Below, piece after piece: positions 11,041 to 34,567 of a DNA stretch of 41,090 bases. The position numbers and the translations under genes are program-made. The stretch spans positions 1 through 41,090 of IMG/VR virus record IMGVR_UViG_3300043449_000667; one strand, written 5' to 3'. This DNA is from a virus. Each line of letters begins with the position of its first letter. The first letter of the stretch is position 1. The notes beneath the pieces are model-generated. The model searched no databases. It had not been told where the DNA came from and saw only the letters and a program-made list of their open reading frames with translations.

Positions 11041-11069
11041 ATTGTAACATCTATTTAGGGATTAAGCAA
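11041..11069 (-). promoter_or_regulatory. Probable sigma70 promoter for folE
   Basis: The minus strand has TTGCTT (11069-11064), a 17-bp spacer and TACAAT (11046-11041), about 43 nt before the TTG start of folE. The leader contains GGAGA and an imperfect inverted repeat (ATGAC...GTCAT). The -35 box lies inside the 3' end of the upstream gene. Confidence 0.55.
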
Positions 11070-11336
11070 GACTTCACTTGGCCAAGTTAGCAAATAAAGC
11101 ATTAAATCTTCTGGCTTTTTAAAGTGAACCATAATGGTAATATCAAACATCTCATGTGAGTGTTTAGCTGATTCTACCTTTGACAATTTGCGCCAGTTAA
11201 ACGGGTCACCTTTGTAGTCAGTTGCTGTCCAACGATTCTTGCAGTTATCAATTAACCACCGCCTAATGTCCTTTAATGTATACACCATGGCGGCAGTCTT
11301 TGCTGAATAGAACTTATCCCTTGTTAGCGTTGGCAT
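11055..11336 (-). CDS. Isolated member of the W/F-motif small-protein family
   Basis: A 93-residue protein related to the 21.8-28.2 kb array. It has the mid-protein motif W27-L-I-D-N31 followed by W36, and a C-terminal F72-KKPED-LMLY81-L-L83-T-W85. Unlike the array copies it carries eight further residues after the Trp, and the next gene does not start there, so the motif is not serving as a ribosome site in this copy. I start it at 11336, overlapping the glutaredoxin stop by 23 nt; an ATG at 11288 is the alternative. The function is unknown. Confidence 0.6.
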   Translation of the reverse strand: MPTLTRDKFYSAKTAAMVYTLKDIRRWLIDNCKNRWTATDYKGDPFNWRKLSKVESAKHSHEMFDITIMVHFKKPEDLMLYLLTWPSEVLLNP

Positions 11337-11559
11337 AGAACTCACTCTTACGTAAGTCGTCCCAGCCGCCAACAAGATTTCCATCAATAATAATTTGGGG
11401 AACAGTTCGGGCAGTTGGTACTGCTTCTAATAAGTTTTCACGAGTAAAGCCATTATAGCCTACTTTGTGTTCTGTAAAGGCAAACCCTTTACTACCTAAC
11501 CATGCTTTTGCTTGGTCGCAATAAGGACAGTGATCCTTGCTATAAACTACGATTTCCAT
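11314..11559 (-). CDS. Glutaredoxin
   Basis: An 81-residue thioredoxin-fold protein with the dithiol active site CPYC (HCPYCDQAK, near residue 11), the cis-Pro segment TVPQIIIDG and the GGWDDL glutathione-site motif. It reduces disulfides, typically for ribonucleotide reductase in phages such as T4; no reductase is in this window. AAGGAAT lies a few bases before the ATG. Its last codons overlap the next small gene. Confidence 0.92.
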   Translation of the reverse strand: MEIVVYSKDHCPYCDQAKAWLGSKGFAFTEHKVGYNGFTRENLLEAVPTARTVPQIIIDGNLVGGWDDLRKSEFYANANKG

Positions 11560-18770: not shown

Positions 18771-21419
18771 TTAGGAAAACAAGTCATCCAGAAATCCTCT
18801 ATCCTTACTTAGATTTAGGTCCCATTTAAGTACACCCAAAAGGTTATCAATCTTAGAGTCAATGATCTTTTCTTCCATTGCTCCATGATCAAATGGTAGC
18901 TCCTTGAACCAGTCTGGCAGGTTCATCTCATCAATTGGATAAGCAATTGAATTGATTTGAAGCGGATTGTTCTTTAGCTTACACACAATAGCTTTCTGTC
19001 CATCAGTGATGTCCATACTACGTCTATCGCCATACGCTTCTTTGATACGGTTCCAGTTAATGGCCGCCATTGCATGTCCAACTCCACACTTACCTGTTTT
19101 CTTATAAACATCTGTATGCTTAGTTAGATTATTAACACGCTTGGGTGTGCCCTTTTCCCAGCCTGGGCGACTCTTAAACTCCTCACGGAACTGCTTGACA
19201 CGAGCCATGACCGTTTCCATGCTTGCACCTTCTAGCGTCATAGTAAGTGCTTCTTCCAAGAAACGTTGCATGAACTCTGGAGTATCAGCTCGCTTCATAT
19301 CAAGACCCATGGCTTTCAATTCGCCTTTAGATCCATCTTTATCTTTACGCTTGCCTTCCTTATCTGTAATAAGAACAGCATAACGCTTCTTGGTCATGTA
19401 GATGCCTTTACTAGCAACTACTTCTCGACCGGCTTTGATGATCTCACCTTGGCTCGCTGGCGCATTGAACGCACGATTCATAAACGCCGGGAACGTGCCG
19501 TTTACTTGATCAGAAATAGCATCATACAATTCGATAATCTTATCTACTGTCCAATCAATCTCACCACGTTCAATTTGTTCTTTGAACACTGGTACAGCCG
19601 AGAAGTAAACAGAGTCAGTATCACCGTAGATAATACTCTTACCCATGTGATCATACTCGCCAGTTAAGCAGTCATTTACTTGGCTTGCCATGTGGCGTGC
19701 AACAAGACGTCCGCATAATGTAGTACTCTGCCCCAGCCGTTGATCAAAGAATCGACTACCTGCGTTCAACAACGCACCATAAGCTGAGTTTAAGTTAATC
19801 TTCTTAACCAGCTGGCGCTTGTCCCAAAAGTCGTACATGTCTGTACCGTATGCTTCCTTAGCTTTTGCTTGCAATTCCTTACGTTCAGCATACCAACGTT
19901 CCAGCAGGCCTGGAATAACACCTTTAGTATCATACTTGAAAATGGTACCGTTGCCGCTAATCATAAGTGGTTGGCCACCGTGGAATACATAGTCATACAC
20001 TTGTGCAGAACTCATTTGTGTACTTGTCCCATCGGCCCAGTCAATAATCTCAGTTTGGCCGATGTCACGAGCCATAACAGATTCGTATTCAAAACAAGCA
20101 AACTTACCTTCCCAGAATTCTGCAATGCCTTTGCCGTCTGCAATAAACTCGTCAATGCCAGCTAACGTGCGTGTCTGGCGTACTTGTCCAATAATAGTCT
20201 CAGGACTCATATTCAACGCACGGATCAACGAAGGATACAGTGAGTTAATGTCCATGGAACCAATCCAGTCATGCATACCTGCTTTAGGAACAGCAACATA
20301 CGCACCTGCTGCCGCATTGTCCTTGGAGTCTTCACTGCGGCGAGGACGATCTGGTACCACCATGTTAAGGCGGTGGGCTTCGTTGATAACAGCTTGGTCG
20401 GTCACAGCAACTGCACCTAACGTGCCACGAAGCGTGACAGTGTTTGCATGACTAATCAGATTGGTAAGTTCAATAAACTTTAACTTGTCGTCTAGTTTCT
20501 TAAGCAATACAACGTCTTGTCTGTTGTAAGCAATAAACTTTTCAAAGTCGTTATTGTATAGTTGATCCAACGTACCTTCGTAGTGGATCTTGTTCTCTCC
20601 AAGTTCAATTTCACCAACATAGTCCAGTCGATAGCTTGGCAGTTCGTGATAGTTGTACTTGCGATACAGTTCAAGATAGTCAAGATGAACACGCCCGATA
20701 GGGTCATATGTTTCTAATGTCTTGCCATACTTTTCATATTCGCGGCGCTTGGGATATTGATCCCACAAGCAAATGCGACGAGTTTGGTCTTTGCCTAACA
20801 CACGAGTAATGCGGTTAGTAGTGTACGGAATATCAAAGCCTTCTGAGTTCCAACCACTTAGTACGTCAGCGTCTTCAATAAGCTCGAGCCACATGTCGAG
20901 CATTTCCTTTTCGCTGTTGCACAAGATAGTGTTGTCAAACTTGGCACAAATTTCTTTAGCAACTTCAATACTCATGCCATCGGGCTTTAGGCACAAAGTA
21001 ATGTTGACATCCATCCATGTCAAGTATGTAGTGATGGCTGTAATGTAGTTGAATGGATCTTCAGGTGGAGCGAAGCCCTTTACCTTGTCGTAAGATACCT
21101 CAATGTCAAAAAAGGCAACGTGAAGGTTAGGCGCATCTTGTCCGCCATACACTTCTTCCAAGCAACGGTTAAGCGGCTTGTAATCGCTTTCGCATAGTTT
21201 TCTGTTGCTATAGATTCTACGCTCTTTGTCAAATGCCGCGGCATTGCCAAGGATAACTCTGCTAACACGATCGCCGGCAATGTTAGTAAACTTGCCCTTA
21301 GAGTCGGGGTAGTAAAATACGTACTTGGCAGGATACTGTTTAAGTTCTCTCTTGCCATTCACACGTTCTACAACGTGGATGATTTCTTTTTTCTTATCGT
21401 GATATGCGTCAATAAACAT
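18771..21419 (-). CDS. Family B replicative DNA polymerase (T4 gp43-like)
   Basis: An 882-residue polymerase close in size to T4 gp43 (898). The exonuclease motifs are complete: FFDIE (D105, E107), NSEGFD (D196) and YNRQD (D302). The polymerase motifs are also complete: MDINSLYPS (D390), K540-x3-NSAYG and YGDTDS (598-603), plus TKKRYA. The C-terminal tail, GFLDDLFS, looks like a clamp-binding peptide. It copies the genome with the clamp encoded just downstream. It begins at an ATG preceded by AAAGAGAAAT, 17 bp after the previous gene. No inserted intein or intron is visible. Confidence 0.97.
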   Translation of the reverse strand: MFIDAYHDKKKEIIHVVERVNGKRELKQYPAKYVFYYPDSKGKFTNIAGDRVSRVILGNAAAFDKERRIYSNRKLCESDYKPLNRCLEEVYGGQDAPNLHVAFFDIEVSYDKVKGFAPPEDPFNYITAITTYLTWMDVNITLCLKPDGMSIEVAKEICAKFDNTILCNSEKEMLDMWLELIEDADVLSGWNSEGFDIPYTTNRITRVLGKDQTRRICLWDQYPKRREYEKYGKTLETYDPIGRVHLDYLELYRKYNYHELPSYRLDYVGEIELGENKIHYEGTLDQLYNNDFEKFIAYNRQDVVLLKKLDDKLKFIELTNLISHANTVTLRGTLGAVAVTDQAVINEAHRLNMVVPDRPRRSEDSKDNAAAGAYVAVPKAGMHDWIGSMDINSLYPSLIRALNMSPETIIGQVRQTRTLAGIDEFIADGKGIAEFWEGKFACFEYESVMARDIGQTEIIDWADGTSTQMSSAQVYDYVFHGGQPLMISGNGTIFKYDTKGVIPGLLERWYAERKELQAKAKEAYGTDMYDFWDKRQLVKKINLNSAYGALLNAGSRFFDQRLGQSTTLCGRLVARHMASQVNDCLTGEYDHMGKSIIYGDTDSVYFSAVPVFKEQIERGEIDWTVDKIIELYDAISDQVNGTFPAFMNRAFNAPASQGEIIKAGREVVASKGIYMTKKRYAVLITDKEGKRKDKDGSKGELKAMGLDMKRADTPEFMQRFLEEALTMTLEGASMETVMARVKQFREEFKSRPGWEKGTPKRVNNLTKHTDVYKKTGKCGVGHAMAAINWNRIKEAYGDRRSMDITDGQKAIVCKLKNNPLQINSIAYPIDEMNLPDWFKELPFDHGAMEEKIIDSKIDNLLGVLKWDLNLSKDRGFLDDLFS

Positions 21420-21837: not shown

Positions 21838-21866
21838 AGTATAGCACTATTGTTTGAGATTGTCAA
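21838..21866 (-). promoter_or_regulatory. sigma70 promoter, probably leaderless, ahead of the polymerase operon
   Basis: The minus strand has TTGACA (21866-21861), a 17-bp spacer and TATACT (21843-21838), followed by GATAT and ATG. The start codon lies where transcription should begin, leaving no room for a ribosome site. The -35 box overlaps the last codons of the upstream gene. Confidence 0.85.
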
Positions 21867-22068
21867 GCATTTCGTCTTGAGCATGTTGATGCCATTCTTT
21901 AAGCCATGGTGAGTGATCACATTCACGCACGTGAGCCATTACACGGTTACGGCCTGCGCCTTCCATTGCTTCGCCGATAGAGAATCTCATTACAGTACGT
22001 CCATGATGTTTAATCTCAACGCACATTGGATCATCCTTTGCGTTTGTCCAAGTAAATTCTTCGTACAT
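21847..22068 (-). CDS. Small hypothetical protein at the end of the array
   Basis: A 73-residue protein, His- and Met-rich, with GEAMEGAGRNRVMAHVREC in the middle. It lacks the W/F motif. Its ATG follows the upstream stop by two bases and uses TTGGAG, contributed by the upstream gene's terminal LTWS codons. Its own last codons contain the -35 box of the next promoter. Confidence 0.6.
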   Translation of the reverse strand: MYEEFTWTNAKDDPMCVEIKHHGRTVMRFSIGEAMEGAGRNRVMAHVRECDHSPWLKEWHQHAQDEMLDNLKQ

Positions 22069-22069
22069 A

Positions 22070-22378
22070 TCAACTCCAAGTTAGTTTAAAAAGCGCCGCT
22101 TCATTTTTGTTTTCAAAGACCCATGTGTTAGCACGATGCTTCCAATGATGCTTGCACTCGTTGTGTAGCCAGTTGTTCATATCAAGTGTAATACCAGAAG
22201 CAAAGAACTTTGGTAGTTCGACCTTTGTCCAACCTACTGCAACCATCATATCAGTAATAAGTTCCCAGTCGATTTCTTCTTGTAGGATCTTTGCAGCCTC
22301 TTCGGCATACTTTTCTTCTAATTGCTTTATCTTTGCATCGTGAGCATCTTGCATTACTTGCATTGCAGTTTTGTTCAT
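22070..22378 (-). CDS. W/F-motif family protein with an N-terminal helix
   Basis: A 102-residue protein. Residues 5-35 form a charged coiled-coil-like helix (KIKQLEEKYAEEAAKILQEE). Motif 1 is W70-LHN-E with W79 after it; motif 2 is F88-ENKNEA94-ALF-K-L99-T-W101-S. The start at 22378 overlaps the previous stop (ATGA) with GGGGTGGA upstream; a longer frame exists but would overlap the neighbour. The function is unknown; the helical arm suggests oligomerisation in addition to the shared domain. Confidence 0.7.
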   Translation of the reverse strand: MNKTAMQVMQDAHDAKIKQLEEKYAEEAAKILQEEIDWELITDMMVAVGWTKVELPKFFASGITLDMNNWLHNECKHHWKHRANTWVFENKNEAALFKLTWS

Positions 22379-22620
22379 TTGTATTGTCCACCCCAGGTTA
22401 GCAAAAACATATTGGCGGCTTCGCGCCATTCGAATTGAACAATTTCATATTCTCTGTCGTTATGAACAGTCATCCACTCCACGTGAAATCTGCGAAAGTA
22501 AGCGCCTTCATCGTCAAATGCACTGCACCACTCATACATTTCAGTGGTACACTTGGGTACTCGAATCCTATGACTAAAGTAAGGCTTATTGTTGCCGCCG
22601 TCTGAATAAAAGTATTCCAT
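22375..22620 (-). CDS. W/F-motif family protein
   Basis: An 81-residue protein with motif 1 at YEW31-CSAF (the usual N/H position is changed) and motif 2 at F63-EWREA68-ANMF-L-L74-T-W76-G. Four extra residues follow the motif. The segment between motifs is rich in acidic and aromatic residues. The start is a TAATG junction with the preceding gene. No function is assigned. Confidence 0.7.
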   Translation of the reverse strand: MEYFYSDGGNNKPYFSHRIRVPKCTTEMYEWCSAFDDEGAYFRRFHVEWMTVHNDREYEIVQFEWREAANMFLLTWGGQYK

Positions 22621-22832
22621 TACTCATTACCTAACACATCAAACATATCTGCGTATTCATAATGCCGCCAATCATCGTAATCAACATAAGTGTTGATGCA
22701 ACGTCGATATATTTTTCTACCCCACACACGTTCGCCTGTTGTGGTTTTAACAGGGTGCCAGGCAAACCAAAGCCTCCAAGGACTTATTTCTATCTTCCTG
22801 GCGATAAATGTATCATGTGGTCCTATATTCAT
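22620..22832 (-). CDS. Second-family small protein (GERVWG type), copy 1
   Basis: A 70-residue protein sharing the block PWRLWFAWHPVKTTTGERVW and then G-KI-x-RR with the product at 26720-26995. Both end with a tyrosine-rich AD/AF-F-D segment. It lacks the W/F motif 2. It uses AGGTGG from the upstream LRWS codons as ribosome site, 8 nt before the ATG. Similar FAWxPVR...GxxVW blocks occur in small phage and bacterial proteins of unknown role. Confidence 0.65.
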   Translation of the reverse strand: MNIGPHDTFIARKIEISPWRLWFAWHPVKTTTGERVWGRKIYRRCINTYVDYDDWRHYEYADMFDVLGNE

Positions 22833-22834
22833 CT

Positions 22835-23071
22835 TTATGACCACCTTAATGCAAACAATGCACGATCATTAATGTTGTCGATACGCCATAGCAGAGACTT
22901 AAAAATCATTTGACTCCATGCTTCGGTGTTTACGGTCCTGGCCTTAATGTTGTTCTCATGACACCATGCGACAATATCGTCGTACAGCTCTTGATCGGTC
23001 ATAACATAGCGGCTATCACCAACCAGCCGTTGTCCTTTGTTGTTTTCAGCAAATACTTTAACTTCAGCCAT
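22835..23071 (-). CDS. W/F-motif family protein
   Basis: A 78-residue protein. N-terminal residues 1-25 form a strand-rich segment (MAEVKVFAENNKGQRLVGDS). Motif 1 is VAW36-CHEN40; motif 2 is W62-RIDNINDRA71-LF-A-L75-R-W77-S. The aromatic position before motif 2 is Trp/Ile rather than Phe. It starts at TAATG with AAGGTGG ahead, coded by the terminal KLRWA of the upstream gene. Confidence 0.7.
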   Translation of the reverse strand: MAEVKVFAENNKGQRLVGDSRYVMTDQELYDDIVAWCHENNIKARTVNTEAWSQMIFKSLLWRIDNINDRALFALRWS

Positions 23072-23280
23072 TACGCCCACCTTAGTTTACACATTATAGC
23101 ATGCTCTTGTTCTTCAAACCAAATGATTAGTTTATTGCCAGATGAATGAAAGTGCATTTTGTATTTGCGTTCATCCCACTCGACTAACTCATCAAGCCAT
23201 TCTTTCATCTCTTGGGCTTGTTCGATCCGAGCCTCAATATTGAATATGTCTTTGGTATCAAATTTGACGCAGACTTGCAT
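23071..23280 (-). CDS. W/F-motif family protein
   Basis: A 69-residue compact member. Motif 1 is KEW28-LDEL with W35; motif 2 is W54-F-EEQEHA61-IMC-K-L66-R-W68-A, with Cys replacing the usual Phe. It starts with MQVCVKF just after the stop of the Cys-rich small gene; a GTG two codons upstream is the alternative. Its terminal codons supply AAGGTGG for the next gene. Confidence 0.7.
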   Translation of the reverse strand: MQVCVKFDTKDIFNIEARIEQAQEMKEWLDELVEWDERKYKMHFHSSGNKLIIWFEEQEHAIMCKLRWA

Positions 23281-23287
23281 AACCAAC

Positions 23288-23437
23288 TTAAATGTCTAAG
23301 GGTGTGGCAGGGCGGTGGGGACAGAATTCGCAAGTGGGATCGTCGCAAGCATCTTCTAACCATGTGTTGCAAGTTTCGCAGTAATAGGCATCGTACTCTT
23401 CCGAATAGTTTTTCTTACAGTCTTCTTTACAGTCCAT
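23288..23437 (-). CDS. Cys-rich zinc-ribbon-like mini-protein (49 residues)
   Basis: The only support for a gene in this 150-base stretch is a frame starting at the TAATG junction at 23437. It encodes MDCKEDCKKNYSEEYDAYYC, then ETCNTW, EDACDDPTCEFCPHRP and an end at LDI. CxxC and CxxxxCxxCP pairs suggest a zinc ribbon. GGGGTGA from the upstream SWGE codons lies before the ATG, exactly as at other array junctions. It was probably missed by length cutoffs. Confidence 0.65.
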   Translation of the reverse strand: MDCKEDCKKNYSEEYDAYYCETCNTWLEDACDDPTCEFCPHRPATPLDI

Positions 23438-23769
23438 TATTCACCCCATGATAGTTTAAGATATGCGTACAGTTCTTCGTGCATGTCAAACACGTTTTTA
23501 TGCACCATCCACTTACCGTCGATATGCTCGTACCACTCTTTGTGCTCGATCCCGTGTTCACGTACCCATACGGATACATCCTTGCGGCAACTGACAGTGT
23601 ACCATGTTGCTCCATCAACAGTGGCTTGGTCAATGACTTCTGCTACAGGTTTTGCTGAATCAGCCATGGTGTAATACTTGCTCTTGCCTACACCAAAGCC
23701 GCCTGCATGAACAACAACTTCGCCGGGACGGAAGCCACCAATTTTAAAGTAATCGGGTACGGGGATCAT
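23437..23769 (-). CDS. W/F-motif protein with a Walker A-like N-terminus
   Basis: A 110-residue protein that looks like a chimera. Residues 9-31 (KIGGFRPGEVVVHAGGFGVG then KS) resemble the entry strand and P-loop of DnaB/RecA-type ATPases (GxxGxGKS), but no Walker B or further ATPase domain follows. Residues 66-110 carry the array motifs: W68-VREH72 and F94-DMHEELYAYLK-L106-S-W108-GE. The start at 23769 forms an ATGA overlap with the membrane-protein gene. ATPase activity is unlikely at this length; it may bind a nucleotide or mimic a helicase segment. Confidence 0.65.
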   Translation of the reverse strand: MIPVPDYFKIGGFRPGEVVVHAGGFGVGKSKYYTMADSAKPVAEVIDQATVDGATWYTVSCRKDVSVWVREHGIEHKEWYEHIDGKWMVHKNVFDMHEELYAYLKLSWGE

Positions 23770-24131
23770 ACAGTCACAAGTGCAACAAGTCCAACATAAG
23801 TCAAGGCGTGCAGGAATTGATCCAGGCCCAGCAACCACCAAAATTCTTCGTGTGTGTTTGCACCCCAACCATACTTTTTGTTAATGTTCATCTTGGCCCA
23901 GTCAATGTGGTAATGAACAAACATGTCAATTACACCTAATGCTAAACATGCCATAGGTGCCCACCACCAAAAGCAAAGTGCAGTAAAAATACCATGCAGG
24001 CCCGAATGTAGGATGCCGCCAGGATGTCCGTACGTGCCTTTGTTTAGATACTGGTAGGGTTTTTGTAGGGGAAAATCTACTACAAAATGCTTGGTAAAAA
24101 GCAGGGTAATCAGGATCAAGGTTTCATTCAT
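23766..24131 (-). CDS. DUF3307-like multi-pass membrane protein
   Basis: A 121-residue hydrophobic protein with the DUF3307 pattern: KHFVVDFPLQ near the start, HSGLH (42-46), HYHIDWAK (73-80) and LDQFLHAL (103-110). The conserved His/Asp residues sit at membrane edges of three or four predicted helices, hinting at metal binding. DUF3307 proteins occur in bacteria and phages without known role. In this array it may act at the inner membrane. It uses GGAG from the upstream LMWS codons as ribosome site. Confidence 0.75.
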   Translation of the reverse strand: MNETLILITLLFTKHFVVDFPLQKPYQYLNKGTYGHPGGILHSGLHGIFTALCFWWWAPMACLALGVIDMFVHYHIDWAKMNINKKYGWGANTHEEFWWLLGLDQFLHALTYVGLVALVTV

Positions 24132-24133
24132 AG

Positions 24134-24490
24134 TCAGCTCCACATCAGTTTAGCAAGTATAGCACACTCTGAGTGTTTTTGCCTAATCTTTATTGTGAGC
24201 CTATTGTCCGAAACGTCGTTATTGGCCATGCCCCAGTCCCAGTCCCATTTTTGTCGGCCCACATTTGCTTCCATCCAGGGCCTGTAATGATCGTTTGGGT
24301 CTGCTGATTCAGTTGACACACATGATCCGTCAGGATCTTCATATAGAGTCACCCAACCCTTGGGCCACCGCACATTGATAACAACACCGGGCATGAATCG
24401 CCACCAAAGTTTTTCTCTTAGGTTCAATCCGCATGGAAAATGAACGCCATTAGGTAGTGTAAACAGCTTTCTTATTTCTAACTTGCTCAT
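24134..24490 (-). CDS. W/F-motif family protein
   Basis: A 118-residue member with a basic N-terminus (MSKLEIRKLF) and a Trp-rich central part. Motif 1 is PW72-MEAN76 with W82, W84 and W86; motif 2 lacks the aromatic start but keeps HSECA110-ILA-K-L115-M-W117-S. The start at 24490 overlaps the previous stop, with GGTGGGG just upstream. Confidence 0.65.
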   Translation of the reverse strand: MSKLEIRKLFTLPNGVHFPCGLNLREKLWWRFMPGVVINVRWPKGWVTLYEDPDGSCVSTESADPNDHYRPWMEANVGRQKWDWDWGMANNDVSDNRLTIKIRQKHSECAILAKLMWS

Positions 24491-24867
24491 TCGCCCCACC
24501 GTAGCTTGAACATCATGTAATCTTCTGGATCACGTAAGAATATCTTGCCTTCGTACCTGTCCCACCAACGACTCCATGCATCAGGTCGAGCAGGATGTGG
24601 TCCAAACTGTTCCTTACACCATGCCATGACTTCTCCGTAATGGACCCAATCATACTCTGCTACATACCATTTGGCACGGCTGAATTTATGTTTGTTCACA
24701 GGTAGCCTACCAAGAGCCGCAAGAGTTTTTGGAAAGCGAGGGGCGTAGAATACGCCTGCATCTATTGGACGGTGTCCGTGCATGTTAGGCGCGGACACTA
24801 AAGGCTGGTGCTTTGCCAATCCAGCTTTCATCTCTTCAATCATTCTAATAACATCGTCTGTCTTCAT
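24487..24867 (-). CDS. W/F-motif family protein
   Basis: A 126-residue member, one of the longest. The N-terminal 35 residues are helical (VIRMIEEMKAGLAKHQ), followed by GHRPIDAGVFYAPRF. Motif 1 is AW83-CKEQ87, then WSRWW; motif 2 is F110-LRDPEDYMMF120-K-L122-R-W124-GE. It begins MKTDDV at an ATGA overlap. The additional N-terminal part differs from all other members, which suggests that the shared C-terminal domain is combined with varied partners. Confidence 0.7.
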   Translation of the reverse strand: MKTDDVIRMIEEMKAGLAKHQPLVSAPNMHGHRPIDAGVFYAPRFPKTLAALGRLPVNKHKFSRAKWYVAEYDWVHYGEVMAWCKEQFGPHPARPDAWSRWWDRYEGKIFLRDPEDYMMFKLRWGE

Positions 24868-25118
24868 GCCCATGTCAGCGCAAACAACGCTGCCTCTTCA
24901 TCGCATTCAAATTGAATAAACTTTTCATACATGTATCCGGGACTATGATAATAAGGGTGCTGGCAGTTTGCTACCAGCCATTCGTTGACCAAATGGTCTT
25001 TGTAGCTCATTTGGTACCGTGCTTGCACATTATCTGCAGTTTGAGCATACGTGACTTTGTGTAGCCGGGGAAATTTAATTCCCGGCCATGCATCATTTGT
25101 AGTATAAGTTATTGTCAT
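24864..25118 (-). CDS. W/F-motif family protein
   Basis: An 84-residue member. Motif 1 is NEW47-LVAN51; motif 2 is F70-ECDEEA76-ALF-A-L81-T-W83-A. The N-terminal half is strand-like with several Tyr. It overlaps both neighbours through ATGA junctions. The terminal codons (TGGGCATGA) give only a weak ribosome site for the next gene. Confidence 0.72.
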   Translation of the reverse strand: MTITYTTNDAWPGIKFPRLHKVTYAQTADNVQARYQMSYKDHLVNEWLVANCQHPYYHSPGYMYEKFIQFECDEEAALFALTWA

Positions 25119-25378
25119 GACCAGGTCAGTGCAAACAAGGCTGCATCGTCTTTGGTCTCAAACCAAAATGTTGATCCTGTCCAAGCATACCGTTGTTTAC
25201 CAATGTGCTCCTCGCACCATTTGTGTGTATGAGTCCATCTGTGCATTATGCCGTCTCGGCCAGGTTTAGCAGAATAGTAGCCACCACATCGAAAACGACT
25301 GTTCCAATCAACATCACTGTTGTGTTGATTATCGTACACTTTCCAACTATCGATAAAGTCGTGTATATTGTCTTTCAT
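25115..25378 (-). CDS. W/F-motif family protein
   Basis: An 87-residue member. Motif 1 is KW54-CEEH58 with W66; motif 2 is W72-F73-ETKDDA79-ALF-A-L84-T-W86-S. The N-terminal part has RFRCGGYYSAKPGRDG, a Gly/Tyr-rich loop. GAGG coded by the upstream LRWS lies 5 nt before its ATG. Confidence 0.72.
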   Translation of the reverse strand: MKDNIHDFIDSWKVYDNQHNSDVDWNSRFRCGGYYSAKPGRDGIMHRWTHTHKWCEEHIGKQRYAWTGSTFWFETKDDAALFALTWS

Positions 25379-25617
25379 GACCACCTCAATATAAACATTA
25401 CAAACTTTTCTTTGTCAACAACCTGGTAATCTGTAATCATTGTAGAATCTGCCGACAAGGTCAACTGTAGCCCGCTGTCTTGTTCAAAGTAGTGAAGCTT
25501 GCCATCAGTTGATTGATCACCTGTAATGAATCTGGCTTCAGGCGGACAAGATGTTATAGTAGGTGCCACTTCGACGCCCCAACGCCATGCCATTGATCTT
25601 AAATTTTCCACGTTCAT
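25375..25617 (-). CDS. W/F-motif family protein lacking motif 1
   Basis: An 80-residue member that keeps only the C-terminal motif in altered form: Y64-QVVDKEKFVMF75-I-L77-R-W79-S. No W-x3-(N/H) segment is visible; instead MAWRWG lies near the N-terminus. It may be a decaying or rearranged copy. It starts at a TAATG junction with GAGGTGG upstream. Confidence 0.65.
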   Translation of the reverse strand: MNVENLRSMAWRWGVEVAPTITSCPPEARFITGDQSTDGKLHYFEQDSGLQLTLSADSTMITDYQVVDKEKFVMFILRWS

Positions 25618-25874
25618 TATGACCACCTCAATATAAACATTATAGCATCTTCTTCATCGCGAAACCAAAACTTTGCGTTATTCACGTACCAACGATGGCA
25701 AACACCTTGTTCGCCCCATACATCACCAGCAATCCCATACTGCTCTACTGACCACTCTACCATTTCAAGCCAGGTTTGATTTTCCCAGTTGGGGGTATAC
25801 CCTTCTGGCTTTAGTGTGTAGTAGCGAGCACCGTGGTGCCGTCCTGGCTCTTGTACGATATGTCGCTGTGTCAT
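25617..25874 (-). CDS. W/F-motif family protein
   Basis: An 85-residue member. Motif 1 is EW41-SVEQ45; motif 2 is F69-W-F71-RDEEDA77-IMF-I-L82-R-W84-S. The last 8 codons are nearly the same as in the neighbouring gene at 25375-25617 (MFILRWS in both), a sign of recent duplication or conversion. An ATGA overlap links it to the coiled-coil gene upstream. Confidence 0.72.
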   Translation of the reverse strand: MTQRHIVQEPGRHHGARYYTLKPEGYTPNWENQTWLEMVEWSVEQYGIAGDVWGEQGVCHRWYVNNAKFWFRDEEDAIMFILRWS

Positions 25875-26314
25875 CACTTGCCGTGTGTTAGTACGTCCCA
25901 CATTTCCAGTTCACGTTCGGCCTTGCGACGAGCCGCATGTTCTTGGTCTCGTGCCGCCTCTGCTTGTTTAACAAGATACTTGGCAGTTGTAAGCTCTTGG
26001 TTTACTTCCTGGATAAAGTCCATAATGGTACGTGCCCGTAGCTCTTTAACTTCATCACGTAGTTGGCGAAGCTCGTCATCGCGAATATCAATTTCTTCAC
26101 GTAGGTGGCTAATGTAGCGACCAACATGCATTTCAGAACCCCATTCGGATGTAAACGTGCAGTAGGTTTCATCAATGCCAACATCAACTAAGTCATCCCA
26201 AATAGCGCCACGGATACGTTCCATTGCAGTTGCCAGTCGAATCTTCTCGGGATCATTGCTGAACTTGATGGTGTAGTTGATCAGTTCTTCATCTGTAAAG
26301 TAAGCTGTGTTCAT
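25874..26314 (-). CDS. Coiled-coil protein inside the array
   Basis: A 146-residue protein with no W/F motif. Residues about 70-140 form a long charged coiled coil (REEIDIRDDELRQLRDEVKE and an AARRKAERELE stretch). It probably dimerises or is a filament-like linker. TGGGGACAA from the upstream LQWGQ codons is its ribosome site. Its own 3' end does not carry the L-x-W codons. Confidence 0.65.
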   Translation of the reverse strand: MNTAYFTDEELINYTIKFSNDPEKIRLATAMERIRGAIWDDLVDVGIDETYCTFTSEWGSEMHVGRYISHLREEIDIRDDELRQLRDEVKELRARTIMDFIQEVNQELTTAKYLVKQAEAARDQEHAARRKAERELEMWDVLTHGK

Positions 26315-26748
26315 TATTGTCCCCATTGTAGTTTAAACATAAAATAGTCTTCGTCGTTTTGGAAAGCAAAGAACCAATGGTCTCCTCCACCCAGTTCGTT
26401 TATTTCCCATTGATTACCAGTGCTTGGCCACTTCATGACACGAAGCATGTCATATCGCCATTTGCCTGACAAGTTTTCTTCGCACCATTCGTAAATTTCA
26501 TCAAAGCCGTCTCTGTAGCCACCGGGGCCATAATCGTAAATGATTTTGTAAACAAAGTTTTCTCGGTTCTCGAAACAATGTACATGCTGATAGCCTTGGT
26601 AGTAGTTTCTTATTTGTGTAGCACGGGGCACACGGTCTGGATCATAGCGATAATCATATTGCTCACGAGTCTCACATCCATGCTTCTTTAAGAACCGATT
26701 TTCTTGCCAAGTGCGATACTTAGATGTTATAGCATTTATTAGGGTCAT
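26314..26748 (-). CDS. W/F-motif family protein, longest array copy
   Basis: A 144-residue member. The first 50 residues are basic and Tyr-rich (KYRTWQENRFLKKHG, YDYRYDPDRVPRATQ). Motif 1 is YEW88-CEEN92 with W97; motif 2 is F129-QNDEDYFMF138-K-L140-Q-W142-GQ. It overlaps the gene to its right by 29 nt, which is unusual here and suggests the start may be slightly internal. Confidence 0.7.
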   Translation of the reverse strand: MTLINAITSKYRTWQENRFLKKHGCETREQYDYRYDPDRVPRATQIRNYYQGYQHVHCFENRENFVYKIIYDYGPGGYRDGFDEIYEWCEENLSGKWRYDMLRVMKWPSTGNQWEINELGGGDHWFFAFQNDEDYFMFKLQWGQ

Positions 26749-26995
26749 ATGTGATCAAATCAAAAGCAGTTGCATACTGTACATGTGGTTCCATATGAAA
26801 CATAGATCCCCAAGCTATCCAGACCTTGCGTTTTAAAATCTTTTCGCCCCATACACGTTCACCGTAGATAGTTCGAACTGGCCACCAAGCAAATACTTCG
26901 TGCCAGGGATAGCAGTCGCATCCGTCAGTGATGATGGTGTATTCCACAGGTGACCAATTGTCTGGTAAAAACTTTGCGGCGCCGTTATAACTCAT
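26720..26995 (-). CDS. Second-family small protein (GERVWG type), copy 2
   Basis: A 91-residue relative of the product at 22620-22832. Both contain FAW-x-PV-(K/R)-T followed by GERVWG-x-KI and a basic RK/RR pair. This copy has a longer N-terminus with two Cys (DGCDCYPW). Neither has the W/F motif 2. The two copies are 4 kb apart with W/F genes between them, so duplication involved more than single genes. The function is unknown. Confidence 0.65.
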   Translation of the reverse strand: MSYNGAAKFLPDNWSPVEYTIITDGCDCYPWHEVFAWWPVRTIYGERVWGEKILKRKVWIAWGSMFHMEPHVQYATAFDLITYDPNKCYNI

Positions 26996-27180
26996 AACCA
27001 AGCGAGCTTAAACAACATAGCATCTTCTTCGTTGCCAAAGAAGTAGTCAATTCGAGTATTGTCGTAGCTGTTATATCCGTCTATGTGTACATCATTGCTG
27101 ATATAACTGGGGCAATTTTCTTTAGCCCAGTCAAGTGGTTCTCGATACGGCCTAAATGGCAGTGTCACATAAGTTGTCAT
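26992..27180 (-). CDS. W/F-motif family protein, minimal copy
   Basis: A 62-residue member, the shortest. Motif 1 is W18-AKEN22 and motif 2 is F47-F48-GNEEDA54-MLF-K-L59-A-W61-L. It shows how little sequence the shared domain needs (about 50 residues). ATGA overlaps join it to both neighbours. Confidence 0.72.
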   Translation of the reverse strand: MTTYVTLPFRPYREPLDWAKENCPSYISNDVHIDGYNSYDNTRIDYFFGNEEDAMLFKLAWL

Positions 27181-27371
27181 GAGCAGGCCAGCTTAAACAT
27201 TACAGCATCATCTTTGTTGGCAAAACAAAACGTAGAATTATGTTCGTTAAAACGCCACACATCATTGGAAAAGTTTTCCCTTAGCCAAATGATACGATCA
27301 TCAGTTGTGTGCATGTCCTTGACGGGCAAATCAAACTGGATGGGCCAATGGCGTTTGTTTAGAACTCTCAT
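27177..27371 (-). CDS. W/F-motif family protein with terminal Trp changed to Cys
   Basis: A 64-residue minimal member. Motif 1 is IW29-LREN33 with W39; motif 2 is F50-ANKDDA56-VMF-K-L61-A-C63-S. The terminal Trp is Cys, a one-base change from TGG to TGC, so the ribosome-site-like GG before the next ATG is also lost. It starts after GGAAAG from the upstream gene. Confidence 0.72.
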   Translation of the reverse strand: MRVLNKRHWPIQFDLPVKDMHTTDDRIIWLRENFSNDVWRFNEHNSTFCFANKDDAVMFKLACS

Positions 27372-27372
27372 A

Positions 27373-27618
27373 CTACTTTCCGTATCTTAACGTAAACACC
27401 ATTATAAACTCTTTTGCTTCTTCATGCGACCTAAATTGCCAAGAATCGTATCCGATCCTGTTTCCGCCAGAGTTGGTAACGGCCCATTCCAAAATAGCAT
27501 CAACAGCCGCATAGTCAACAGCAGAGCCAAGTTCAGCATCACCATCATAAGGATCAACCAAGCGGACTGTGTGTCCCCATCCTTTTTTTAATGTGTACTT
27601 GGGTACTAACCAGCTCAT
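27373..27618 (-). CDS. W/F-motif family protein, diverged
   Basis: An 81-residue member with motif 1 at EW45-AVTN49 and W60, and a degenerate motif 2: F62-RSHEEAKEFIMVF75-T-L77-R-Y79-GK, where extra residues precede the terminal part. The Trp is Tyr. Its ribosome site is GGAGG from the upstream codons. The N-terminus is basic and hydrophobic. Confidence 0.65.
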   Translation of the reverse strand: MSWLVPKYTLKKGWGHTVRLVDPYDGDAELGSAVDYAAVDAILEWAVTNSGGNRIGYDSWQFRSHEEAKEFIMVFTLRYGK

Positions 27619-27896
27619 GTCATTGAGCCTCCAAAGCGTAGCTTGGCCAGGATAGCATCTTCTTTATTCTTAAAGCTGATTTGTGTCACAGTATCCCAGA
27701 CACTACTGCTTACATCACTAACGTCCGCTGAGTGCATGATCCACAAGTCATGATCACCGTGATACATTTTAAAATAGTCGTACTCGGCCTGTGTGGTCAT
27801 CAGCACGGGCGCAATGTTTTCAGATAGCCACTGGTACACATCTTCTTCAACTGCATCGCCAATAAACAAATTGTAATTTAACCACTTGTCAGACAT
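27615..27896 (-). CDS. W/F-motif family protein
   Basis: A 93-residue member. Motif 1 lies early at QW23-LSEN27; motif 2 is F75-KNKEDA81-ILA-K-L86-R-F88-GGSMT. The terminal Trp is Phe and five residues follow. These GGA GGC codons form a GGAGG ribosome site for the next gene, an alternative way to keep the same junction. Confidence 0.68.
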   Translation of the reverse strand: MSDKWLNYNLFIGDAVEEDVYQWLSENIAPVLMTTQAEYDYFKMYHGDHDLWIMHSADVSDVSSSVWDTVTQISFKNKEDAILAKLRFGGSMT

Positions 27897-28176
27897 CAAA
27901 GTTCAGCATAAAGTATGCTGCCTCGTCTTTGTCTTTGATGTGTACAGTGATCATTGGATCACCAGAGTTGAATCGCGGAGTACAATCGGTCCCGGGGCAG
28001 TGCTCCTTCATCCAATTTAAAAACTCGTGGTGGTTGTTGCAATACACCCAGCAATGCCAGCCCACAACTTCCTCACGGAATTCAGATTCTGGCTCACCTG
28101 GTTTAAGCAAGATTGCAGGCACCAGGTGCCAACCATCTTCATGGCGCCAATGATGTACACTGATTTTTTGTTTCAT
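27889..28176 (-). CDS. W/F-motif family protein, first W/F copy after the promoter
   Basis: A 95-residue member. It has a Trp/His-rich N-terminus (VHHWRHEDGWHLVP) and GWHCWVYC. Motif 1 is NW55-MKEH59; motif 2 is I80-KDKDEA86-AYF-M-L91-N-F93-DV. It is the first motif-bearing gene transcribed. It overlaps the membrane-protein gene's stop (ATGA-type junction). Confidence 0.68.
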   Translation of the reverse strand: MKQKISVHHWRHEDGWHLVPAILLKPGEPESEFREEVVGWHCWVYCNNHHEFLNWMKEHCPGTDCTPRFNSGDPMITVHIKDKDEAAYFMLNFDV

Positions 28177-28466
28177 TACTGCATCCACATTTTTACCAGA
28201 GCAACGGAATCAATGGTGACTAGTAGTAAGTAGTTGGCTAGCATACCAACGCTACCACGAGTACGTGCCGCCCAAGCAAAGATACCACATTGTAAAATAA
28301 ACAGCGGATACAATATTAGGAACGGTGGTGTAGGAACTGTTAGCATCATAGTGAAGCTACAGCCAATGCTTAAGAACCAAGCAAGAATTTCCAGCACACA
28401 GCGCACTGGATTTTCTTGCCAGTCATTTCGAATATAATTGCCTACACTTGAAAGTAGGCTAAGCAT
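28176..28466 (-). CDS. Small multi-pass membrane protein
   Basis: A 96-residue protein with three likely membrane helices (about residues 23-43, 47-68 and 74-92) and short loops. It begins at a TAATG junction with the DsbA-like gene. No family is recognised. The promoter-proximal place in an early-looking operon is compatible with a host-membrane function, such as superinfection exclusion, but nothing in the sequence proves that. Confidence 0.6.
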   Translation of the reverse strand: MLSLLSSVGNYIRNDWQENPVRCVLEILAWFLSIGCSFTMMLTVPTPPFLILYPLFILQCGIFAWAARTRGSVGMLANYLLLVTIDSVALVKMWMQ

Positions 28467-28751: not shown

Positions 28752-28780
28752 AGTATACACGAGCTGTAGCAGGAAGTCAA
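28752..28780 (-). promoter_or_regulatory. sigma70 promoter of the small-gene array
   Basis: The minus strand has TTGACT (28780-28775), a 17-bp spacer and TATACT (28757-28752). The TGA stop of the gene to the right lies inside the -35 hexamer. The leader of about 30 nt contains a short inverted repeat (CTTAC-TAG-GTAAG, 28741-28753) and CCGGAGAT before the first ATG. All 25 array genes follow with no visible terminator. Confidence 0.85.
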
Positions 28781-29535
28781 GTGTCTTTACGCTCAATATC
28801 TTCTTCTACGCAACTTGATCCGTACTGGATCTCAATGATTCGGACAGGTTCATTAAATGGATTAGTTAGCTGATGCCATTCCCCGACTGGAACGTGATAT
28901 TCTTCGTGGCGGGCCAATTCTCTACTTGGTAAGGCATATCCCCCAGACATCATACTATTGACGTTGGCTCGCCCTTCGCTTACAATCCAATATTCAGCAC
29001 GATGTAGGTGACGTTGCATACTTAAACTCTTGCCGGGATTGATTGTAAGTTCTTTTACCTTCATACCCAACACTTCGTGTAGCACACGATAGTAACCCCA
29101 GGCTCGTTCTGTCTTGGGAGCCTTCCATTCTTCTAAAATCCAGGAACTGGAATTGGCCTTGTTGTCCCCACCTACACCAAATTTAAACAACACGTTCTTG
29201 ACTGACATTTCGGGGATGTTTGCCGCAGTACGATCTCCACCATTGACAAAGATGATTTCAGCGTATGAGTAGCTTGATTGGAAACTTTCTAATAGCTTGA
29301 CTGCACTGCCATCGCTGTCATCAAAAGCAACAACTTCATCAACACAGCGCAATCCTTCTAGCACAGCTTGACGTTCGGCAAAGGGCATAAACGGACGTCC
29401 TTTTTTGCGTTCAAGCCAAGCATCAGAGTTTAGGCCAACAACTAACTTGTCGCCGAATTCACGAGCCTCTTGTAAGTATTTTATGTGTCCTGAATGAACA
29501 GGATCAAAGCCACCGGTTGCAATTACTATTTTCAT
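28777..29535 (-). CDS. Nucleotidyltransferase-cupin fusion
   Basis: A 252-residue two-domain protein. Residues 1-about 135 are an RfaE2/TagD-like nucleotidyltransferase (IATGGFDPVHSGHIKYL with HxGH, GLNSDAWL, PFAERQAVL). Residues about 150-250 match the cupin of type II phosphomannose isomerase/ManC C-termini: WGYYRVLHE, LTINPGKSLSMQRHLHRAEY, GEWHQLTNP and an EEDIERKDT end. It may make and isomerise a sugar nucleotide in one chain. I start it at 29535, 5 nt after an ATAAATA box; the longer frame runs through this box. An unusual pairing of domains. Confidence 0.8.
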   Translation of the reverse strand: MKIVIATGGFDPVHSGHIKYLQEAREFGDKLVVGLNSDAWLERKKGRPFMPFAERQAVLEGLRCVDEVVAFDDSDGSAVKLLESFQSSYSYAEIIFVNGGDRTAANIPEMSVKNVLFKFGVGGDNKANSSSWILEEWKAPKTERAWGYYRVLHEVLGMKVKELTINPGKSLSMQRHLHRAEYWIVSEGRANVNSMMSGGYALPSRELARHEEYHVPVGEWHQLTNPFNEPVRIIEIQYGSSCVEEDIERKDT

Positions 29536-29540
29536 GTAGA

Positions 29541-29547
29541 TATTTAT
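29541..29547 (-). promoter_or_regulatory. Late-type promoter box (ATAAATA)
   Basis: On the minus strand AATAAATA is followed by TCTAC and the ATG of the nucleotidyltransferase-cupin gene. Spacing to the start codon is 5 nt, as at 38-45 and 40553-40560. It lies in a 50-bp divergent region shared with the plus-strand gene. Confidence 0.5.
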
Positions 29548-29581
29548 TGGCACATACCCCTGTGAGTTTTTATAATAAGTA
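29547..29581 (+). promoter_or_regulatory. Promoter of the plus-strand gene (sigma70 or late type)
   Basis: Two readings overlap. A sigma70 form has TTGGCA (29547-29552), an 18-bp spacer and TATAAT (29571-29576). A late form has ATAAGTA at 29575-29581, 4 nt before the ATG. Either would give little or no leader. Which is used, and when, cannot be told by eye. Confidence 0.55.
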
Positions 29582-29585
29582 CTGT

Positions 29586-30509
29586 ATGCAAACATTTACC
29601 GAATTTTTCAATACCAAGTATCCTATTGCTTGTATGGCAATGAACAAAGTATCAGATGTAAAACTGGCAATAGCAGTACGCAAAGCTGGATGCTTACCGA
29701 GCCTAAGCATCTTTAATTACTTTGTACGATTAGGAGTAATTGATCCAGCATTGCTTGAACAGGACCTTAAACAATACAAAGAAGCAGTTGGCGATGCTTC
29801 TATCTTGATCAGTACTGACATTGGTTCGTTATTAGATTTACCAGGTATGGTAGATATGCTATTAGCGTATCAAGTAAAGGCTGTAGAGATTATTCTTGAA
29901 GATCAGGCAGCAGATGCAGAGCACAGACGTAATGTATTGCTGCCACAGGTAGTGTCACGTTTAACAGACAACGGAACATTGGTTTTTACCAAGTCACTAA
30001 TTCCAAACGACTCAATGCCCGAGGCCAACGGCATCATCCTTAAAGGTCCCGACGGCGCAGGCCGCGGCAACTTAACTGGTGAAACACTAGAGCAATTGTT
30101 TGACAAATTTACAAAATTATTCCCTTCAAAGCATGTAATTACATCTGGTGGAGTTGGCACAAGTGAGCAATTAAAATATTACATTGACAAGGGTGCATTT
30201 GGTGTAGGTATTGGTACTATGTTTGCTGTAAGTGCTGAAAGTAAAATTTCAACAGAAACAAAACTTAAATTGGTAGCATCAAGTGGTAGCGATGTTAAAC
30301 GTTTAGACAACGGTAAAACAGATGGTGACAGTCAAAATGCCATCGTATTCGCAGAGATGCCCGGTGACAATCATAACAATACTCGAGGCTTAATGGCTGG
30401 CATAAAAAGCCCAGCCATGGGACACGTATTCATTGGCAAGGGAATCGAACATGCAACTGAAATTCTTACTTGCGAAGAAATTGTTGCACGTTTAGTTAAA
30501 GACCTTTAA
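29586..30509 (+). CDS. Nitronate monooxygenase-like flavoprotein
   Basis: A 307-residue TIM-barrel protein of the nitronate monooxygenase/2-nitropropane dioxygenase type. It begins like the family (TKYPIACMAMNKVSDVKLAI, AGCLPSLS), and has a late FMN phosphate-binding stretch (ITSGGVGTSEQL, GAFGVGIGTMF). IMP dehydrogenase/GMP reductase-like barrels are the alternative, but the start fits NMO better. It is the only plus-strand gene. It converges on the methyltransferase gene, and both stops lie in one palindrome. The role in a phage is unclear: detoxification or modification chemistry. Confidence 0.7.
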   Translation: MQTFTEFFNTKYPIACMAMNKVSDVKLAIAVRKAGCLPSLSIFNYFVRLGVIDPALLEQDLKQYKEAVGDASILISTDIGSLLDLPGMVDMLLAYQVKAVEIILEDQAADAEHRRNVLLPQVVSRLTDNGTLVFTKSLIPNDSMPEANGIILKGPDGAGRGNLTGETLEQLFDKFTKLFPSKHVITSGGVGTSEQLKYYIDKGAFGVGIGTMFAVSAESKISTETKLKLVASSGSDVKRLDNGKTDGDSQNAIVFAEMPGDNHNNTRGLMAGIKSPAMGHVFIGKGIEHATEILTCEEIVARLVKDL

Positions 30510-30514
30510 AGGTC
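30501..30514. repeat. Palindrome holding both convergent stop codons
   Basis: GACCTTTAAAGGTC is a perfect 14-bp palindrome. Read on either strand it gives GAC CTT TAA, so both the plus-strand flavoprotein and the minus-strand methyltransferase end in Asp-Leu-stop here. It has no T run or loop, so it is not a typical terminator, although it could pair in RNA. Confidence 0.7.
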
Positions 30515-31132
30515 AATGCCGCGATACAAAAATAATTTGTACTTGTCAGCTGTTTCATCAACTTTAACCTTGTAACCAGCCGCAATAAAAACTGGTATTG
30601 CGGTACCGCATTTGCCATTGAACCCAGTTGGAGTTCCGCTATCAACCCACGAGTCGTCAATTAGTACAATGCTCTCATGATCCATGTACGGCAAACAATA
30701 CAGGGCCTGCAATCTGTGTTCTTCTTGACAGTTTTCGTTATTCATAACAACACCACGTTCCGCATAAGCCGCAATTTGATCGTGTAGCCATTGGTATTGT
30801 AAGTTGTTTGGATCAATCCAGTCAAAGTTATCTAAGTACAGTACCTTGATTCGCTTTTGCAATAACGGCAGCTGATCTTTGCACCAGTCTGATCCTGCTG
30901 ATGTTAAACAAAAATTAAAGTCAGCTGGCATGTCTGAAAAGTGTTGCTGTGCGTCTGGTACTACATCAACTGAATAAAACTGCAAGCCTCGTTCATGCGC
31001 CCAGTTGTATAAAAATGCAGTGCTACCCTCGCCTCGCTCGCTACCAATTTCAACTACGCATTGATCTGGGCCAACTGATAAGTTAGACAACACTGGATTG
31101 TCTTTTAATATTGTGTACGGAATCATTCCCAT
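30506..31132 (-). CDS. Class I SAM-dependent methyltransferase
   Basis: A 208-residue Rossmann methyltransferase. The SAM-binding motif is VVEIGSERGEGSTAFL (residues 26-41), followed by FYSVDVVPD with the acidic ribose contact, and IVLIDDSWVDSG later. The arrangement resembles sugar- or small-molecule O-methyltransferases. It sits next to glycosyltransferase-like genes, so methylation of a surface or virion glycan is plausible. It is preceded by AAGGAAAT. Confidence 0.72.
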   Translation of the reverse strand: MGMIPYTILKDNPVLSNLSVGPDQCVVEIGSERGEGSTAFLYNWAHERGLQFYSVDVVPDAQQHFSDMPADFNFCLTSAGSDWCKDQLPLLQKRIKVLYLDNFDWIDPNNLQYQWLHDQIAAYAERGVVMNNENCQEEHRLQALYCLPYMDHESIVLIDDSWVDSGTPTGFNGKCGTAIPVFIAAGYKVKVDETADKYKLFLYRGIDL

Positions 31133-31134
31133 GT

Positions 31135-34565: not shown

Positions 34566-34567
34566 AA

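Follow-up and report, generated by a model that had tools for sequence, protein, structure and literature searches.

The window analysed here is the whole of a viral record of 41,090 bases (IMG/VR record IMGVR_UViG_3300043449_000667). It contains an array of small genes whose proteins share a C-terminal module. Some 23 short genes precede the gene for DNA polymerase B on its upstream side and on the same strand, and 17 of them carry a two-part motif. An original prediction, made from the sequence alone, had described 17 small proteins with this motif, and all 17 open reading frames (ORFs) are present on the minus strand between positions 28188 and 21847 (Table 1, where the labels m01, m02 and so on are given).

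The reality of the module was assessed with a profile of the last 60 residues. In a leave-one-out test, where 16 segments were compared with the left-out 17th and with 500 shuffles of each, the left-out member outscores all 500 of its own shuffles in 16 of 17 cases; the exception is m16 (23437-23769). A comparison of the profile with the 444 stop-to-stop segments of the window yields exactly the 17 members and a weaker match at 11055-11387, which is probably the 18th segment of the original prediction. A chance motif is excluded by the leave-one-out test and low complexity by the structure models (see below). The ratio of nonsynonymous to synonymous substitution rates (dN/dS) is well below 1 for all array genes that have orthologs in related contigs, where it is computable, including the interspersed genes that do not have the module, and the array ORFs are therefore real genes. 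Members have been gained and lost between related contigs with polymerases that are 88-99% identical. Several ORF starts are located later than in the longest ORF because they overlap the stop of the preceding gene (ATGA or TAATG), and thus some proteins are slightly shorter than first listed.

AlphaFold2 models of m11 and of one relative show the same order of strand, helix, strand, strand, helix, with a core confidence of about 89-97. The module is confidently predicted to be a compact beta-alpha-beta-beta-alpha domain; the two models agree, and unrelated folds, which would have spoken against a common domain, did not appear. A Foldseek search with the m11 model gave no fold match in the PDB, with a best E-value of 2.2 and a query template modelling (TM) score of <=0.40 among the matches listed. 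In a viral model library the best matches to m11 are uncharacterised phage proteins (probability near 1), and a protein of Agrobacterium phage Atu_ph07 is among the weaker ones. Scans of 70 and 126 members against Pfam, PHROGs and NCBIfam found no significant match to the module; the matches were to N-terminal donor families, i.e., those of the peptides described below, and isolated weak ones. The PADLOC anti-phage defence families were compared with 126 members and gave no family match, only five isolated weak matches. The claim that no described family has this pattern is thus upheld in Pfam, PHROGs, NCBIfam and the PDB fold search.

A search of viral contigs produced 35 loci with the module, and the profile hits are therefore not just chance matches. 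Nearly all are multi-copy arrays with up to 25 members; two have only 2-4 members in the stretch covered. The collection grew to 608 distinct members when whole contigs and a further search were included, and three long contigs have 32, 41 and 14. The cultivated Sinorhizobium phage Phosso has 40-47 copies as determined by two profiles, Atu_ph07 has 6 members and Pseudomonas phage PA5oct has 3; no module match was found in five other jumbo phages that served as controls, and the search found no relative of the module in bacterial genomes. The hosts of the family are large T4-related phages. The core pattern, placed at the very C-terminus, reads W-C-x-E-x-x-G ... W ... F-x-F-x-x-E-x-D-A-x-x-F-x-L-R-W. 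Where annotation was inspected, all members are hypothetical proteins, and literature searches found no description of such arrays. A reusable C-terminal module of about 55 residues behind unrelated N-termini, as originally proposed, is supported by the profile, the multi-locus search and the two structure models.

The N-termini had been described as completely different. They are indeed varied, but profile comparisons show that a subset of them in relatives are short pieces taken from a fixed menu of the phage's own core proteins. The menu comprises three segments of the T4 gp23-type capsid protein, a helicase/terminase-like P-loop, the NLCxEI motif of ribonucleotide reductase NrdA, and motifs A and B of polymerase B. 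In the member scans with PHROGs and Pfam, the T4 gp23-type major capsid protein is found in 7 and 8 members; the same scans give DnaB-like helicase, UvsX and NrdA, and the remainder are isolated weak matches. Several array genes exceed the Pfam Gp23 cut-off in whole-contig searches. When profiles of 257 conserved phage proteins were compared with 492 N-terminal parts, 14 matches reached E<1e-3, mainly to capsid protein and DnaB-like helicase, and shuffled sequences gave none. A follow-up comparison confirmed the helicase, NrdA and capsid donor identities.

The capsid fragments are the best defined. A profile was made from 77 capsid proteins, a collection that is biased since it was gathered with a partial pattern; the search behind it had yielded capsid genes and not new chimeras. 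It detects 14 fragments at E<0.01 among 568 N-terminal parts and none in 20 shuffled sets, with E-values down to 7e-14 and with three separate capsid segments in use. The PF07068 matches of array genes span roughly 26-70 of the 376 profile positions, and a full-length capsid fold (PF07068) was not found in array genes; full capsid genes exist separately from the arrays (L039-L042). A profile of the middle capsid segment reaches further array genes, among them m22 of the window (E 8.6e-4 against the fragment profile, compared with 0.14 for the best of 20 shuffled sets). The P-loop of m16 matches its lineage with E 0.0021 and a DnaB-like profile with E 0.023. The IDAGVFYAPRFP segment of m13 resembles the C-terminal capsid segment but, with E 0.73, is not significant alone.

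Short motifs were also counted. NLCxEI is present 11 times compared with 0.005 in shuffles, GVQPM 7 times compared with 0.015, the polymerase motif A pattern 3 times compared with 0 and motif B 2 times compared with 0.03; these counts do not represent independent events because related members are included. The P-loop donor is ambiguous, as the flanks are DnaB-like and RQTGKS is also present in a presumed terminase (cluster b51). Exact 6-residue words in common with phage proteins occur in 132 members, barely above the 115 found with reversed sequence, and short words alone were therefore not used as evidence. A 10-residue position-weight scan of 43,382 windows is clearly above chance for the capsid only. 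The P-loop chimeras (L014 5643-6092, L017 1864-2289, L030 4350-4820 and relatives) begin with D-(I/L)-ET, which is similar to exonuclease motif I. This start is found 9 times compared with 0.3 in shuffles and is possibly a further captured motif. A separate segment, F-x-M/L-GDV-D/E-DP..Y.AQP..EWQQT..GKWVM, is common to array proteins and to separate small genes (Table 1).

The same peptides are present on different modules and different peptides on the same module, with swaps across at least four module lineages. The KYWPYQ module is found with the capsid peptide, with the capsid peptide and polymerase motif A, with motif A alone and with NLCKEI. The KYKFSRAKW module has as partners the capsid peptide, polymerase motif B with GVQPM, or the P-loop with NLCKEI, and the VDGxxWYTV module has D-x-ET with P-loop and NLCKEI, the P-loop alone, or the capsid peptide. 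This reshuffling points to repeated recombination from a small menu.

A comparison of the capsid peptides with full capsid genes shows identities of 63/87/35% at codon positions 1/2/3, where unrelated sequence gives 26%. For one capsid pair from a single genome the values are 79/96/21%, and for the P-loop pieces 59/68/31%. Amino acids are maintained in the capsid and P-loop pieces, and in the capsid pieces third codon positions are near random, which implies that the peptide itself is under selection; a decoy at the DNA level or a recombination scar is unlikely because the peptide is kept but the DNA is not. The copies also differ from the originals in a consistent manner. Arg 8 of the capsid segment is present in 77 of 77 capsids and absent in 9 of 9 array copies, and NLC(T/C)EI of the originals is NLCKEI in 11 of 11 copies. 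The model of one protein with a capsid peptide gives predicted local distance difference test (pLDDT) values of ~51-56 for the peptide and 91-97 for the module, which suggests an unstructured peptide displayed on a folded module. A design with core-motif fragments at the front ends of proteins that share a module was found described nowhere in the literature searched.

The 3' ends of the module genes have a second property. The Arg of the terminal L-R-W is encoded by AGG in 178 of 244 cases (73%), compared with 9% of the Arg codons in the rest of these proteins. When the next ATG is within 12 bases the proportion is 157/197, and otherwise it is 21/47; in Phosso, where the members are scattered, AGG is rare at this position (2/16). 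The overlap of stop and next start NNA|TGA (ATGA) is present in 235 of 437 members, and with this overlap the last codon has to end in A. Examples from the window are ttgaggtggtcATGAAA before m11 and ttgaggtggtcataATGAAC before m10. The AGGTGG at the module 3' end resembles a ribosome-binding site, and each cassette would thus carry the likely start signal of the next gene. A ribosome site inside the upstream gene together with overlapping stop and start are properties of a translationally coupled operon cassette, as which the array genes are here predicted to function. The C-terminal motif was originally presented as a protein feature. The module is real, but because of the AGG preference and the stop/start overlap its LRWS end is partly dictated by DNA, i.e., the motif is in part a nucleic acid signal.

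The remaining features of the window are listed in Table 1. The DNA polymerase B is closest to that of Phosso (48%) and Atu_ph07 (46%), followed by other T4-related jumbo phages. Expression from one sigma70 promoter had been proposed. The promoter-like sites are compatible with one transcription unit, but the window has 21 such sites compared with 18 +/- 4.5 in shuffles, and since the scan is no better than shuffles, a single sigma70 promoter is not demonstrated. The interspersed genes at 26720-26995 and 22620-22832 are paralogs as judged by eye, with a PV(K/R)T..GERVWG(E/R)KI motif and no module, and are maintained in relatives. Within the membrane protein gene, 83 bases (23838-23920) are 77% identical to Aeromonas phage APT65; the phage collection contains no other match to the region at the DNA level. 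Beyond the array, positions 28777-36025 encode a cytidylyltransferase/heptose-type protein, a UDP-glucose dehydrogenase-like protein of 784 aa and a radical SAM protein, as determined by PHROG matches.

Table 1. Array genes and associated features of the window, and loci of a segment common to array proteins and small genes in other contigs
Feature	Position	Strand	Remarks
m01 module protein	27889..28176	-	divergent end ...AAYFMLNFDV; profile and leave-one-out; orthologs 70-86%
m02 module protein	27615..27896	-	profile; orthologs 57-89%
m03 module protein	27373..27618	-	profile and ortholog comparison
m04 minimal module protein, 64 aa	27177..27371	-	profile and ortholog comparison
m05 minimal module protein, 62 aa	26992..27180	-	profile and ortholog comparison
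Interspersed gene without module	26720..26995	-	WPVRT..GERVWGEKI; conserved in relatives
m07 module protein, long N-terminus	26314..26748	-	profile and ortholog comparison
Interspersed coiled-coil-like gene without module	25874..26326	-	ORF list and ortholog comparison
m09 module protein	25617..25874	-	highest leave-one-out score; one of the queries in the search for relatives
m10 module protein	25375..25617	-	start overlaps upstream stop (AGGTGGTCATAATG); profile
m11 module protein	25115..25378	-	profile; predicted structure, mean pLDDT 81, module core about 89-95
m12 module protein	24864..25118	-	profile and ortholog comparison
m13 module protein, KYKFSRAKW type	24487..24867	-	profile; N-terminus with IDAGVFYAPRFP
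m14 module protein	24134..24490	-	profile and ortholog comparison
Interspersed membrane protein without module, PHROG 2470	23766..24131	-	PHROG match
m16 module protein, P-loop N-terminus GGFRPGEVVVHAGGFGVGKS	23437..23769	-	module weak; ATG at 23769 overlaps upstream stop
Interspersed Cys-rich 49-aa ORF without module	23288..23437	-	ORF list
m18 module protein	23071..23280	-	profile
m19 module protein	22835..23071	-	profile and ortholog comparison
Interspersed GERVWGRKI family gene without module	22620..22832	-	conserved in relatives
m21 module protein	22375..22620	-	profile
m22 module protein	22070..22429	-	N-terminal helix EEAAKILQEEIDWELI, mid-capsid-segment lineage
Last gene of array block before polymerase genes, without module	21847..22068	-	ORF list and ortholog comparison
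DNA polymerase B adjoining array	18771..21419	-	PHROG 262; used to place the phage
Outlying weak 18th module protein	11055..11387	-	profile E 6e-4
Promoter-like site upstream of operon, TTGACT-17-TATACT	28752..28780	-	promoter scan
Promoter-like site between array and DNA polymerase genes, TTGACA-17-TATACT	21838..21866	-	promoter scan
F-x-M/L-GDV segment	L023 10695-11081; G008 167098-167394; L024 1938-2210; L033 10969-11388

We tentatively interpret the module proteins as decoys, made early, for the host sensors by which conserved phage motifs are recognised. The tandem coupled cassettes may form an epitope-display system, in which altered copies of core motifs are presented on a common new module and blind host sensors or rivals; this is a possible, not a probable, reading of the sequence comparisons. 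Such a system would be a recombining library of decoys at the protein level. The module proteins would be made early, before the core proteins themselves, and would occupy host immune sensors, or host factors used by sensors, without triggering them. It would benefit a sensor to read motifs that are fixed in the phage, to which the phage could respond with altered early copies; a large, fast-turning set of cassettes would answer varied hosts. Gol is a 29-residue region of gp23, the most conserved in gp23, that binds EF-Tu and activates Lit (PMC3014915). The capsid protein is also the trigger of CapRel and possibly of other systems (PMC9712102). Both are precedents for the sensing of such phage parts by bacteria.

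Several points weigh against this interpretation. Most members do not have a recognisable donor, and decoying of core motifs therefore cannot be the entire function. Within the window only m22 (capsid helix) and m16 (P-loop) have supported fragments, both of them weak. The Arg 8 contrast depends on 77 related capsid sequences that came from the partial-pattern collection. The position of the most often copied capsid segment, at or next to the T4 Gol region, is presumed. Except for Lit, the known sensors recognise folded proteins and not catalytic-loop peptides, and linear peptides with the motifs of the helicase P-loop, NrdA or polymerase are not known to be sensed. A Gol-like peptide could also activate Lit instead of blocking it.

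Other explanations account for parts of the same evidence. The module may act on one host machine, with the N-terminal peptides as docking tags taken from phage proteins that bind partners, e.g., the Gol region for EF-Tu, and with other tags in the members where none is recognised. One conserved module with varied N-termini, and a peptide that is kept when the DNA is not, are consistent with such targeted effectors, as is the most-copied peptide, which is presumably at the region known to bind EF-Tu (PMC3014915). However, the polymerase and NrdA motifs are not known as protein-docking sites, and the module has no active-site-like pattern beyond structural-looking W/F/L positions; this explanation is considered rather unlikely. 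An origin as weapons against competing phages is unlikely. When a related phage co-infects, the early chimeras would become inserted in its capsid, helicase, reductase or polymerase, or would titrate the partners of these proteins, similar to capsid-derived restriction factors, and the producer's own late proteins would escape through dosage or small differences. The donors are core proteins common to related phages with the capsid as the commonest, the copies differ consistently from the originals, and the closest capsid is not always the phage's own (in G008 it is far down the list of 77); in G005, however, the phage's own capsid shares first place among the matches. It is also unlikely that short peptides from the catalytic loops of polymerase or NrdA would be dominant negatives, and self-poisoning is left unexplained. 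It is quite unlikely that the array represents an ordinary fast-evolving accessory family with unrelated functions and a few incidental N-terminal captures. For most N-termini there is no donor, only 11 and 7 members among 492 have the two main donor profiles, small accessory protein families are common in large phages, and Bacillus phage G with ~35 copies of one zinc ribbon is a precedent (PMC7824862). The restricted donor menu, the way in which the same motifs have repeatedly been joined to different modules by recombination, and selection at the peptide level argue against it.

That the module is a handle in a substrate or adaptor system for a phage ClpP-type protease is very unlikely. ClpP is directly beside module genes in G007 (188766-189341), Phosso (115158-115679) and PA5oct (180349-181020), but each of the five control jumbo phages, where no module match was found, likewise encodes it, and in other contigs it is several to tens of kilobases from the arrays. 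As ClpP presence fails to separate phages with and without the module, a Clp adaptor was rejected. The neighbourhoods with a module gene and ClpP are G007 188446-189341, Phosso 113159-117261 and PA5oct 180349-182187. It is highly improbable that breaks at intein or homing-endonuclease sites, which are located in conserved motifs of just this kind, seeded fragments that have no present function. Inteins classically occupy P-loops and the A and B motifs of polymerases, and the relative G015 has a split intein exactly at the NrdA SNLC/CEI junction. On the other hand, an intein N-terminal match is present in only 2 of 19 genomes and in neither case in an array, the capsid is the main donor, and the loss of DNA identity with retention of peptide identity is unlike a scar. 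Intein or homing scars are thus disfavoured, and largely refuted by the codon-position result; no intein match was found in the window. In G015 (IMGVR_UViG_3300044295_000252, 37837-41538, L134/L135) the NrdA gene split by the intein at SNLC-CEI has an HNH-like ORF between its parts, a fractured-gene arrangement. In PA5oct (MK797984.1, 218656-218925) the intein N-terminal match is inside an open frame of 825 residues.

If the decoy interpretation were correct, the peptides would identify which phage motifs are sensed by bacterial immunity, and would lead directly to unknown sensors for helicase, NrdA and polymerase. Whether or not these proteins are decoys, they represent a large unannotated family with a new small domain and some 40 members in one cultivated phage. 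They are also a rare case where short peptides of core-protein motifs are preserved by selection inside other proteins, and where a C-terminal protein motif also serves as the likely ribosome site for the gene that follows.

Among known systems, Gol/Lit is similar in that a short N-terminal region of gp23 acts as a peptide on host EF-Tu (PMC3014915), and the most-copied array segment is presumably at or next to this region. It differs in that the array segment is in separate small proteins before a different fold, and an interaction with Lit or EF-Tu is here hypothetical. CapRel and other capsid-triggered defences show why a decoy of a capsid segment could benefit a phage, although CapRel itself is a sensor of the host and binds newly synthesised capsid protein (PMC9712102); literature searches found no described phage decoy of the capsid-segment type. 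The T4 gp23-type capsid protein (PF07068, PHROG 138) has in common with array proteins the sequence of three short segments, but the rest of the capsid fold is not present in them. Lineage-specific expansions in jumbo phages are comparable in that one small domain is present many times in a large phage; the zinc ribbons of Bacillus phage G are a different domain, and captured core motifs and coupled cassettes are not reported for them (PMC7824862). Polymorphic toxin cassettes also reuse a constant part while another part is swapped through recombination (PMC3482391). In the arrays, unlike in the toxins, the constant part is the C-terminal module of ~55 residues, and some of the swapped N-termini come from the phage's own core proteins.

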